Source: Leptolyngbya sp. SIO1E4 (GTDB lineage: Bacteria; Cyanobacteriota; Cyanobacteriia; Phormidesmidales; Phormidesmidaceae). From it: DNA of 64,000 bases. The stretch's first letter is position 1. Each line of letters starts with the position of its first letter. The notes beneath the pieces were generated by a model. The model did not search any database. It was given only the letters and a program-made list of their open reading frames with translations, and had not been told where the DNA came from. The stretch spans positions 1,872,001 to 1,936,000 of the forward strand of contig JAAHFU020000002.1 in NCBI GenBank assembly GCA_010672825.2, given 5' to 3'. A program made the translations under genes and the position numbers. Positions 39,739 to 45,180 of this stretch are shown piece by piece.

Positions 39739-42414
39739 CTAAGCGTTGCTCGTAATCGCCTGCAGCGCATTTTCAAGGGTGTCTAGGCCACAACCGATAT
39801 TGCTTTTAGCCCAGTCAAGTAGCCTGGAAACTCTCTCGCCTTGAGGGGTTGAAGCCTCGCCTAAATTACCGCGAGGAGCATCTAGGGCAAAGACCAATTT
39901 CTCAAAGTCGGAGGTGGCTAAATTACTGAGGGTGTCAAATAGCTTTATCCGCTGCATGGGGTCATCTTGCAGGGTTTGAATGGGCCAGGAGTCCTTGCAG
40001 TTTTCAGGATGAAAGCTGCTGCTCTCCGCCAAGGGAGGGTAATCATTCTTGTCGGCCTCCGGGTCATAAACAGGGTCGCTGAAACCCAGGATCAATTGGC
40101 GAACATCCACCATCTCAAAGCATTTTTGGCATTGAATTTTTTCTTGACCTTTGTCGATAAAGCGATGCAGCACATTGAGCGGGAAGAACTGAGGGGCATC
40201 ACCCGCCTGCCAGAGATCGCACTGACAAGGAATGAGTTTGTTGACGCGCATGCGATCGTAGGAGTCATTGATTTTGTCAACCTCATGGATAATGACCGTG
40301 ACCAGGTCTTTCGGGCGCTTGCCGCAGACGCGGATATGGATCTCACCTTTGTGATACAGCTCAATGATCTCAGCCTGAGCAGAGCCGTTGTTGAGAACGA
40401 CACCACTTTTCCAGACGAGTCGCTGACCAGCAATAAATTTATGCATCTCAACGATAAAGCGAGTGAGAATGCCTTTAGGCATGAATCCGTAACGGTAACG
40501 GAGCAGCAGGGTTGGCGGTTCATCCCAGTTATAGGCGGGTTTATTGCTGCTCAGAAGTTGAGGGGCAATGTACTGGTCATCGGTGCCAGGAATTTGATAA
40601 CAGAGCTTGAACCGCATCATGAGCTGTAGCAGTTCATCGCGCATGTCCGCATATTCGTCATCGCTCCAAACGATGTCGAGGTGGGTACGGGTGAAGCGGC
40701 CAAGGTTGTCGTAGATTTCCTTTGTATCAAGGGCTTTATAGACAGCGGCAGTGCCCCATTCAGGTTTAAGAATGACCGTATGCTTGAGAATGGGGTCTTT
40801 TTGAAAATGCAGGCAAACCCCTAAGTCGTGGAGATATTCACTCAGCTGAAGCTGATCGGCTTGATGCGTAAACCCGTTTGCTTCACAAATTCGATAATAT
40901 TCCACTAAAGAAATATAGTTTCGCTGATCGGTTTCTAAGGCCCGTCGAATATCCACCCATTTCTTGGGCAAACGGGTTCCAACATGGGGTAAATCAGTGA
41001 TGTACTGCTGAATCTTCCGCCTGATTTCATCCAGACCCCGATTCGTTTTCAGATTCGTGGCCAGAGTCTCCCGGAAGTTGTTAAATTCGCCCCGCAGTTG
41101 CCCTTCGTTGACGTCGCAATGCCGATCTTGTTTTTCATTTTTAACAATGAAGACAGGGCTACTGTCACTGAGCAGTTCAACAATGCTGAGCCAGTAGTAG
41201 AAATCGGTGTTGTCTTGCCGAGTATCGACCACAAGGGCGTAGAGAGAGCGTTTGGTCAAGAAAAATTGATGGGTGGCATGGTAAATTTCTTGTCCGCCAA
41301 AATCCCAAATATTGGTGCGGAAAACGGTTCCATCCGGCAACTCAAAGTCCCAGCGAATAACATCAATCCCTTCAGTAGAGACTTCGTGGGAGTCTAGTTC
41401 ATAGCTGGGGTCAACAATCTTTTTAGCCAGGGATGTCTTGCCAGCCCCCCCCTCACCCACAATGATGAGCTTGGCCTCGTAAACATAGTCTTTACCTTGT
41501 TCTAGCTGCTGCCGCAGGTAATTGAGGACACTTTGTGTTCCTTCCCAAACAATCTCTGGGGGGGGATCTTCGAATTGGTTTCCGTAGAGTTCCAGCTTTT
41601 CGAGCTTCTGGAGCCTGCCGATTTCAGGCGGCAATGCATTCAATTGGTTGCCCACCAGGTCAAGTTGTTGCAGGTGGGTGAGCTGTCCAATTTCAGGGGG
41701 CAATACACTCAGCTGATTGCTGACCAGGTCGAGCTGTTGCAGGTGGGTGAGTTGCCCGATTTCGGGCGGTAGGGCTCTCAGTTGATTATCAATGAGATCA
41801 AGCTGTTGAAGATGGGTGAGATGCCCAATTTCGGGCGGCAACACACTCAGCTGGTTACTCACCAGGTCAAGCTGCTGCAGATGAATCAGCTGTCTGATTT
41901 CGGGCGGCAGCGCTCTTAATTGGTTGTAGCTGAGGTCGAGCTGCTGCAGATGAATCAGCTGTCTGATTTCAGGGAGCAGTGCCTGCAGTTGATTATTGAA
42001 AAGGTCAAGCTGCTGCAGATTAGTGAGCTGTCTGATTTCGGGCGGCAATATGCTGAGCTGATTTGAGCCTAGGTCAAGCTTCTGCAGATTGATAAGCTGC
42101 CCAATTTCGGGGGGCAGTGATCTTAATTGGTTGTAGCTGAGGTCAAGCTGCTGCAGTTTGGTAAGCCGTCCGATTTCAGGGGGCAGCATCCTCATCTGGT
42201 TGGAACGCAGATCAAGTTGTCGAAGATGAATGAGTTGCCCAATTTCAGGGGGCAGCGTACTGAGTTGATTCGAGCCGAGGTTCAGCTGCCGCAGATTTGT
42301 TAGCTGTCCGATTTCGGGAGGTAGCTTCCTTAGTTGGTTGCGCCCTAAATCAAGGGCAGTCCAACCTTCTGCAGCAGCTTGATCAATCAGCCTCTGTAGG
42401 GGGTCTCGGGCCAT
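39739..42414 (-). CDS. LRR-Roc-COR (ROCO) protein with a C-terminal adaptor-like domain
   Basis: 891 residues. Twelve 23-residue leucine-rich repeats (about 18-295, consensus [23 protein letters not shown]). Then a Roc GTPase (about 308-470) with P-loop GEGGAGKTS and switch DFGGQE, though the NKxD base-recognition motif reads KNEKQD. A COR dimerisation domain follows to about 720, then a Cys cluster (IPCQCDLW and IQCQKCFEM) that may bind a metal. The last 70 residues ([20 protein letters not shown], then [20 protein letters not shown]) look like small death-like/effector-associated domains of cyanobacterial conflict NTPases (inference). Bacterial ROCO proteins are GTP-driven switches. No effector gene is adjacent. 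Confidence 0.88.
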
Positions 42415-43020: not shown

Positions 43021-43072
43021 GTCAATTCTCCCCATTGAATCAGCCCTTATCGTACCGGGCGCTGCTGCTTTT

Positions 43073-43768
43073 TTACTGCTCAACCGCGTTTGTTTGTAAT
43101 GCTTCTAGGGTGGCAACCACCCGCTGCTTGCTGGCCTCTAAATGGGCTTCAATCGTTGCCATCGCGGTGGGCAGCGATCGCGACTCAATGGCCCGATAGA
43201 TTTTGCGATGCTCTGTGCAAATTTCAAGCACCTTAGGGTTACTGCGAGTTGTTTGTACCCGTAGCAGCATCATCTTGTCAAACACCTGATCGAGCAAATC
43301 TGTCAGCCAAGGATTGCCTGCACTTTCAGCAATATGGCGGTGAAACTGATAGTCCAGATTTAACATTTCAAAGGTGTTCAGCGTTGAAGTTTGGCGCTGA
43401 ACAGCCCGTTCTGCCTGCGTAATCGTGAGTTCTAACTGTTGCAGCATCTCGTCACTGGCGTGGGTACAGGCTGCTTGAATGGCTGCTTTTTCTAGAGCAA
43501 TGCGGCAGTTGTAGAGATGGACGGCATCCTGGGTTGATACGGTGATGACCCGAATACCGCCGCCAGGGTCAGCTGCGACCAACCCTTCCCGCTGTAGCTG
43601 TCGGATGGCTTCCCGCACAGGGGTGCGGCTAACCCCGAGCTGCTTAGCCAGATGGGTTTCTACCAGGCGATCGCCTGCCGCCAACTCTCCTGACAAAATG
43701 TGGATGCGTAGGGCCTGATAAGTCTGTTCATGCAAGGCTTCTCGCCGGGGCAGCGGGTTCGGTTTCAT
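43073..43768 (-). CDS. GntR-family regulator, FCD subfamily
   Basis: 231 residues from ATG 43768, with GGAG upstream; two GTG codons just before it are alternatives. N-terminal winged helix: LHEQTYQALRIHILSGELAAGDRLVETHLAKQLGVSRTPVREAIRQLQREGLV. C-terminal FCD ligand domain (about 85-225) has the metal-binding Asp/His set in DYQFHRHIAESAGNPWL and HRKIYRAIESR, HLEAS. FCD regulators usually repress and release DNA on binding a small carboxylate or amide. It is divergent from the amidohydrolase at 43918, with a 13-bp palindrome between. It probably represses both transcripts and itself. Confidence 0.92.
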   Translation of the reverse strand: MKPNPLPRREALHEQTYQALRIHILSGELAAGDRLVETHLAKQLGVSRTPVREAIRQLQREGLVAADPGGGIRVITVSTQDAVHLYNCRIALEKAAIQAACTHASDEMLQQLELTITQAERAVQRQTSTLNTFEMLNLDYQFHRHIAESAGNPWLTDLLDQVFDKMMLLRVQTTRSNPKVLEICTEHRKIYRAIESRSLPTAMATIEAHLEASKQRVVATLEALQTNAVEQ

Positions 43769-43815
43769 CACCACTCCAAGCAGTCCTCTCCGTGAGCGTT
43801 AGGAAAACATCAGTT

Positions 43816-43857
43816 GTAGACAAGGTTACTGTGCGCTTAGTGTATACAGTATACGTT
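43816..43857 (+). promoter_or_regulatory. NtcA-activated promoter of the amidohydrolase gene
   Basis: GTAGACAAGGTTAC (43816-43829) is an exact GTAN8TAC NtcA box. Exactly 22 bases later comes TACGTT (43852-43857), a TAN3T -10 box. Predicted transcription start is near 43864, 54 bases before the ATG. Confidence 0.8.
43842..43854. promoter_or_regulatory. Probable GntR (FCD) operator
   Basis: GTATACAGTATAC is palindromic apart from its central base. FCD GntR regulators often use GTATAC-type operators. It lies between the NtcA box and the -10 and overlaps the -10 by three bases, so binding should block transcription of 43918. Confidence 0.7.
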
Positions 43858-43917
43858 GACAGTATCTGAGCTAAACCGTTGCCCATTGCTGGGTGCTCCA
43901 TTACCGCAGGAAGGACT

Positions 43918-45180
43918 ATGACGAATCGCCTCATTTCGACCCTCGCCATTGACTCAGATCGGTTGATGCGCTCAATCAAACGGCTGGCCCAGGTGGGGCA
44001 GTTGCCGAATGGGGGTGTCCAGCGGCTGGCCTTTAGCCCCGAAGATTGCCGGGCCCGGCAGCTGGTGCAAGCCTGGATGCGGGAAGCAGGCATGACCGTT
44101 GCCATTGATGCGGCTGGCAATATCATTGGGCGCTACGCTGGCCATTTTGAAGATGCTCCCCCTTTGGTTACGGGGTCTCATATTGACACAGTCCCCAACG
44201 CTGGACACTACGACGGCACCTATGGGGTGCTGGCAGGCATCGAGGTTGTTCGAAGCTTGGCCCAACAAGGCATCCGGCTAGACCATCCTTTAGAGGTGAT
44301 TGTATTTGCCGATGAGGAACGCACGATGCTCGGCTGCAAAGCCTTAGCAGGGCAACTGTCCTCTGATCCGGAGCTGTACCGGGGGCGCGAAGGGGATCCT
44401 GTGGATGCCTGCTTGGAGCGCATTGGTGGCAATTGGGCTGCGATCGCCCAGGTACAGCGGGCACCGGGTAGCGTCGCTGCTTTTGTGGAGCTGCATGTGG
44501 AGCAAGGCCCGGTGCTAGAGTCTGTAGACAAGCAAATTGGTGTGGTGACGGGCATTGTCGGTCAGCGGCGCTATTGGATTACCCTTGAAGGCCAGTCTAG
44601 CCACGCAGGGACGACCCCCATGCCCATGCGCAAAGATGCCCTGGTGGCTGCCTCTCAGGTAGTGCTGGCAGTTCATCGCCTTGGCAATCAGCCCGGTGAC
44701 CAGGTGGCGACTGTTGGTCGGATGGAGTTACATCCCAACGTCCCCAACAGTATCCCTGGTCATATTGAAATGAGTTTGGATATTCGTGATCTGAGTGGCC
44801 ATCGCCTGGATGCCCTGATCGCAGAAATCCAGGCTGAAATTCACCTCATTGCGGCCCAAACTCGAACTCACATTTCCTTGGCGCAGCGCTTAGACAACGA
44901 ACCTGCCCCAGCGAACTCCCACATTCAATCGGCGATCGCCCAGGCCTGCGACGACTTGCAGCTCAGTCACTGCTCCCTGCCTAGCCGCGCCAGCCATGAC
45001 GCCCAAGAAATGTCTCGGGTAACAGATATGGGCATGATTTTTGTGCCCAGTGAAGGGGGCATCAGCCACGCCGAGCAAGAATATACCTCTCCAGAAGCCT
45101 GTGCCCAGGGGGCAAATGTGTTGCTCCATACGCTGATGCGTTTGGATCGCCATTATCGCTGTTCTGGAGATAGTCGATAG
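43918..45180 (+). CDS. M20-family allantoate/N-carbamoyl-amino-acid amidohydrolase
   Basis: 420 residues from ATG 43918 with AGGAAGG upstream; the open frame continues to a TTG at 43879. Binuclear zinc site: GSHIDTVPNAGHYDGTYGVLAGIE (His, Asp), FADEERTMLGCKA (Glu pair), ELHVEQGPVLE (His), and the C-terminal SHDAQEMS His. The lid/dimer domain has GQSSHAGTTPMPMRKDA. This family opens allantoate, ureidoglycine, N-carbamoyl amino acids or beta-ureidopropionate and frees ammonium. Substrate cannot be fixed, but the NtcA box, the GntR operator and the allophanate-like neighbour fit nitrogen scavenging from ureides or hydantoins. Confidence 0.9.
   Translation: MTNRLISTLAIDSDRLMRSIKRLAQVGQLPNGGVQRLAFSPEDCRARQLVQAWMREAGMTVAIDAAGNIIGRYAGHFEDAPPLVTGSHIDTVPNAGHYDGTYGVLAGIEVVRSLAQQGIRLDHPLEVIVFADEERTMLGCKALAGQLSSDPELYRGREGDPVDACLERIGGNWAAIAQVQRAPGSVAAFVELHVEQGPVLESVDKQIGVVTGIVGQRRYWITLEGQSSHAGTTPMPMRKDALVAASQVVLAVHRLGNQPGDQVATVGRMELHPNVPNSIPGHIEMSLDIRDLSGHRLDALIAEIQAEIHLIAAQTRTHISLAQRLDNEPAPANSHIQSAIAQACDDLQLSHCSLPSRASHDAQEMSRVTDMGMIFVPSEGGISHAEQEYTSPEACAQGANVLLHTLMRLDRHYRCSGDSR

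Follow-up and report, generated by a model that had tools for sequence, protein, structure and literature searches.

Joint control of a ureide-catabolism promoter by a pathway regulator and a global nitrogen regulator reportedly occurs at the hpxSAB promoter of Klebsiella pneumoniae, in work said to have appeared in J Bacteriol in 2011. There the GntR-family protein HpxS is said to act together with NAC from sites that overlap core promoter elements, and to be dual, a repressor without allantoin and an activator with it. At the cyanobacterial nir operon NtcA works with the pathway regulator NtcB, a LysR-type activator. Canonical class II NtcA promoters (glnA, nirA and urtA) have a GTAN8TAC box, a 22-nt spacing and a TAN3T -10 hexamer, with a predicted box centre at -41.5 (PMC3898017). 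A cyanobacterial GntR-family protein, PlmA, has been linked to PII-PipX (PMC5083789).

The locus described here lies in the window, i.e. the 64-kb stretch of DNA that was analysed, and as judged from its sites it resembles this known style of control, a pathway regulator combined with a global nitrogen regulator, here with NtcA and an FCD-type GntR protein. It shares with the canonical class II promoters the box, the spacing and the -10 hexamer, but has a predicted second, substrate-type regulator site inside the core promoter. Like PlmA, the regulator is a GntR-family protein that would be tied to cyanobacterial nitrogen control; unlike PlmA, which belongs to a distinct, universal GntR subfamily acting via PII-PipX, it is of the FCD type and patchily distributed. 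As at nir, NtcA would be joined by a pathway-specific regulator for one nitrogen source, with the difference from NtcB that the predicted GntR site is at a repressor position. As in Klebsiella, predicted sites for a pathway GntR protein and a global nitrogen regulator meet at one ureide-catabolism promoter. However, the nitrogen regulator is of the LysR type there (NAC) and of the CRP type here (NtcA), gene set and phylum differ, HpxS is reportedly dual, and the likeness is drawn at the level of logic. Literature searches on an NtcA and FCD-GntR pair, on hydantoinase with NtcA and on cyanobacterial purine catabolism yielded nothing matching, and substrate-specific repression on top of NtcA was absent from the NtcA literature searched. 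An earlier note on this DNA had known of no described pair of this kind; this held for the pair itself in the literature searched, while the logic reportedly has a precedent in HpxS and NAC.

The preferred reading, to which we assign a probability of about 0.7, is that the region between the divergent gntR and M20 genes (Table 1) would be a doubly gated promoter at which purine-ureide scavenging is activated by NtcA and repressed by GntR. It provides a concrete, falsifiable map of how nitrogen hunger may be coupled to one organic nitrogen source in cyanobacteria, and names a predicted repressor and a list of targets (transporters, HpxO-linked enzymes, M20 and AH_C).

Table 1. Genes and predicted promoter elements of the divergent GntR/M20 locus (positions in the window)
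Feature	Position	Strand	Remarks
Stand-alone AH_C (allophanate hydrolase C-terminal, GGCT-like) protein, 153 aa	42622..43083	-	TTG frame overlaps GntR stop
FCD-domain GntR regulator, predicted repressor	43073..43768	-	Alternative start GTG at 43774
Intergenic region	43769-43917		Between leftward FCD-GntR gene and rightward M20 gene
NtcA box GTAGACAAGGTTAC (GTAN8TAC)	43816..43829	+	Exact match; centre -41.5 of inferred start
Predicted GntR operator GTATACAGTATAC	43842..43854	no strand	Perfect 6-bp arms, central A; overlaps -10
-10 hexamer TACGTT (TAN3T)	43852..43857	+	22 nt after NtcA box
Predicted M20 transcription start	43864	+	Inferred from -41.5 geometry
M20 hydantoinase/carbamoylase-family amidohydrolase, 420 aa	43918..45180	+	PF01546, TIGR01879

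The identities and the divergent orientation of the FCD-GntR and M20 genes given in the earlier note were confirmed. In the regulator both PF00392 and PF07729 scored above cut-off, and residues D139, H143, H187 and H209, which correspond to the metal-ligand positions expected from FCD structures, were invariant in seven orthologues. By GntR protein, the closest named relatives were Halomicronema and Oscillatoria CS-180. The M20 protein passed the NF006771 model (PRK09290 group, allantoate amidohydrolase) with 436.1 bits at a cut-off of 399, and scored below the AllC equivalog TIGR03176 (268 against 597.75). Its best solved relative was L-carbamoylase (N-carbamoyl-L-amino acid hydrolase), followed by ureidoglycolate hydrolase, with allantoate amidohydrolase farther away. 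The enzyme is likely an allantoate amidohydrolase or a related ureide amidohydrolase. In the cyanobacterial M20 subfamily to which it belongs the DEE loop (ADEERT-MLGCKA) is shortened, with about 5 residues fewer than the DEEGARF...M motif of the solved L-carbamoylase 3n5f.

The gene behind gntR had been described as allophanate-hydrolase-like; the AH_C domain is indeed there, but without the amidase half. An assignment as allophanate hydrolase was rejected, as the protein consists of AH_C only and reached 55-66 bits against cut-offs of 511 and 487 (TIGR02713 and PRK08186). Its conserved part starts near 43035 (ATG). That AH_C could be the missing ureidoglycolate lyase was unsupported by any lack of the known lyase, PF04115 being at cut-off in 44 of the 59 genomes of the comparison set, including, though weakly, the window genome. 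Close orthologues of AH_C were present in most relatives having M20 and HpxO, where the gene was often divergent from M20 or followed by dihydropyrimidinase or HpxO. The regulon draws attention to an AH_C-domain protein whose gene accompanies those of purine catabolism. A protein of the LRR-Roc-COR (Roco) family with 891 aa is encoded at window positions 39739-42414.

HpxO urate hydroxylase was found in 42 and M20 in 43 of the 59 genomes, and 41 had both (41/2/1/15 for both, M20 only, HpxO only and neither; p 5e-11, shared ancestry ignored). M20 therefore occurred in 41 of the 42 HpxO genomes. The HpxO of the window genome scored 597.6 bits (cut-off, 500), and its gene lies side by side with those of a pbuX-type (xanthine-type) permease and an OHCU decarboxylase. 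The genome also encodes dihydropyrimidinase, a Rieske relative and exactly one M20 of this family. The ureide catabolism proposed earlier is well supported by the co-occurrence of M20 with HpxO and by the presence of HpxO, OHCU decarboxylase and the xanthine-type permease in the window genome. The simplest reading of these gene sets would be breakdown of purines or urate via allantoin and allantoate, in which M20 sets the ureide nitrogen free.

The same circuit may instead serve a hydantoin, a dihydropyrimidine or an N-carbamoyl amino acid, by means of dihydropyrimidinase, M20 as a carbamoylase and ABC uptake. We regard this as the less probable substrate, but as one that deserves consideration. 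It would fit the likeness of M20 to L-carbamoylase, the gene order GntR-AH_C-dihydropyrimidinase in the sister genus, and a dihydropyrimidinase enzyme scoring above the dihydropyrimidinase cut-off and below that of allantoinase AllB. However, M20 tracks HpxO, many genomes with M20 and HpxO lacked dihydropyrimidinase, and guanine deaminase, xanthine permease and HpxO were found within GntR loci. Dihydropyrimidine dehydrogenase PreA was over cut-off only in genome G054 (1 of 59), and reductive uracil catabolism was rejected for most genomes.

The promoter elements listed in the earlier note (NtcA box, 22-nt spacer, TAN3T -10 and dyad) are present letter for letter, two short sites falling within 42 bp. 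The dyad occupies part of the spacer and extends into the -10; it had been called near-perfect, and is actually an inverted repeat whose arms match perfectly on either side of a single base. The start near 43864 was obtained again when the box centre was taken as -41.5 (rule from PMC3898017), and is a prediction from this geometry. The window genome has an NtcA gene (385 bits; cut-off, 245).

GTAN8TAC alone was observed twice in the 64-kb window against 4.4 expected, which is chance level, so that the exact box, although present, is not significant alone and could be a chance match in a single sequence. The combination of box, 22 nt and TAN3T was observed once against 0.08 expected in the same window, and GTATACNGTATAC with up to 2 mismatches also once, as an exact copy, against 0.47. 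The exact 13-mer dyad has two copies in the 8.2-Mb genome against 0.024 expected from a dinucleotide model that was derived from the window and applied to the whole genome. The case for the paired sites rests on comparative evidence.

In nine aligned M20 promoters the string TGTATACAGTATAC was invariant, while the flanking sequence varied. In five Halomicronema-type genomes (the window genome, G000, and G001, G014, G032 and G022) the operator is preceded, at a distance of 12 nt, by an exact NtcA box; among these the interior of the box varies while its GTA and TAC ends stay. As read from the alignment, a TACNNT hexamer is kept 22 nt after the box in G001, G014, G032 and G022. G027 has its box 22 nt upstream of the operator, which adds one helical turn, and the same distance separates GTATAGACAGCTAC from the operator in the ABC-operon promoter of G054, which is divergent from gntR. 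All five sister-genus genomes with the GntR/M20 pair thus carry both sites (spacer of 12 nt in four and 22 nt in one), an outcome in favour of the reading in the earlier note. The pairing recurs in Microcoleus, where the spacing is different but again fixed: at six loci an exact box is found at a fixed offset of about 26 nt from the operator position, the operator being clear in five of them and degenerate in one. A TATTNN-type -10 is found some 22 nt behind the box, and the start is covered by the operator. At M20 of Pseudanabaena, Xenococcus, CCP2 and others the operator is present, with no exact NtcA box within 260 bp. Relatives without GntR keep an NtcA box upstream of M20 and have no GTATAC dyad. 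As the one site is kept without the other in these two groups, NtcA and GntR control, as predicted from the sites, is a matter of separable layers, combined in several lineages. The pairing of box and operator is lineage-specific, and predicted NtcA control does not extend to the whole regulon.

These comparisons also bear on the possibility that only the GntR switch is real, with GTATACAGTATAC serving to repress M20 and gntR, and GTAN8TAC being fortuitous or part of a weak promoter in which NtcA has no role. The chance-level frequency of the box, the lineages with an operator and no box, and a trans ABC promoter without the canonical box-22-TAN3T arrangement would agree with this. We nevertheless consider it unlikely, given the kept box ends around a varying interior, the spacings of exactly 12 and 22 nt shared by five genomes, the independent recurrence at a fixed distance in Microcoleus, and the box in GntR-less relatives.

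Two variants of the operator were also observed. The genomes of genus g12 (L024-L028) have before M20 the form TGTATACA-N6-TGTATACA, two boxes 14 bp apart, and the M20 promoters of Pseudanabaena have an extended form similar to it.

The exact dyad was present in 14 of the 27 genomes with a GntR orthologue (E < 1e-60) and in none of the 32 without one (Fisher p 1.5e-6; 59 genomes, shared ancestry ignored). The named genome collection yielded 77 usable regions upstream of GntR relatives; 34 of them contained the dyad or its longer variant with at most 2 mismatches, compared with 1 of 77 after shuffling. Sites lie upstream of gntR itself in G012, G020 and G054, which suggests that this regulator may be autoregulated.

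Nineteen of the 20 exact dyad copies in the 59 genomes adjoin M20/AH_C, GntR, nucleobase permease, guanine deaminase/Rieske or transporter genes; the remaining copy, G057:C67, has no obvious target gene. In most genomes the exact dyad adjoins the M20/AH_C or M20/GntR region. The second copy of GTATACAGTATAC in the window genome, at L051:7434-7446 (G000:C1:972433-972445), is upstream of a PotABCD-like ABC operon. In G054 the dyad is likewise at an ABC transporter operon, of which M20 is the last gene, and a dihydropyrimidinase, a PuuE-like protein and a cytosine-deaminase-like amidohydrolase are encoded near it. Further copies adjoin NCS2/AzgA-type nucleobase permeases (G020 and G057), an NMT1-type ABC transporter (G057), EamA-type transporters (G017 and G041) and Rieske oxygenase genes (G057, and G041 with guanine deaminase close by). 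HpxO urate hydroxylase and OprB-type porins were found within named GntR loci, HpxO in those of Microcoleus and Aliterella. The ABC, HpxO and dihydropyrimidinase promoters of the window genome have no clear canonical NtcA promoter (box-22-TAN3T). A GTAN8TAC match at its ABC promoter, GTATCGCTGTATAC, was not counted, as it overlaps the left arm of the dyad and the operator supplies its TAC end; it was the only exact box at these promoters and may be a chance match.

Site positions, conservation, co-occurrence and regulon content were read directly from the DNA, and from them we infer binding by NtcA and GntR, activation, repression, the inducer and the exact substrate. NtcA with 2-oxoglutarate would bind its box and activate M20 as a class II activator, with the -10 and start of Table 1. 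The FCD-GntR protein on GTATACAGTATAC would block RNA polymerase for as long as it has no pathway metabolite bound; because the dyad lies between the box and the -10 and overlaps the latter, bound GntR would exclude polymerase. Metal binding is expected of Asp and His residues that the FCD domain has retained, which makes a carboxylate metabolite, for instance a ureide acid, plausible as the inducer. GntR would also repress its own gene and, in trans, the ABC transporter operon elsewhere in the genome. Urate would be converted to allantoin by HpxO and OHCU decarboxylase, and allantoin would be opened by a dihydropyrimidinase/allantoinase-type amidohydrolase before hydrolysis by M20. M20 would then be produced only when nitrogen is scarce and substrate is present at the same time.

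Both proteins could also bind with GntR acting as an inducer-dependent activator or dual regulator and not as a plain repressor. FCD-GntR proteins can act both ways, and HpxS is reported to do so according to the presence of allantoin. This is improbable here, however, since the operator lies where a block would be expected, overlapping the -10 in Halomicronema-type genomes and the start in those of Microcoleus, and since a class II activator site is already there in the promoter. Chance resemblance without any functional regulatory site would be conceivable for short motifs, which arise randomly, and for a box that is not significant alone, but it is very hard to reconcile with an operator that is invariant in nine M20 promoters, exceeds its expected number in the genome and is tied to the presence of GntR.

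Extended beyond the locus, double gating by NtcA and GntR would amount to a cyanobacterial regulon, not described in the literature searched, where NtcA forms an AND gate with an FCD-GntR protein that represses purine/ureide catabolism. The operator position would vary by lineage (in some between the NtcA box and the -10, in others on the start), and the stand-alone AH_C would be a new enzyme of ureide breakdown. We propose this wider picture tentatively, at somewhat less than even odds. Iron-uptake-type SomB/OprB porins are located inside the GntR clusters L141, L126 and L122, and possibly provide outer-membrane entry for the nitrogen source. Rieske oxygenases (Rieske and VanA_C) at L058:7010-9129 and L053:6197-7303 carry the operator, and such operator-bearing enzymes are candidates for a xanthine-oxidising step replacing xanthine dehydrogenase.
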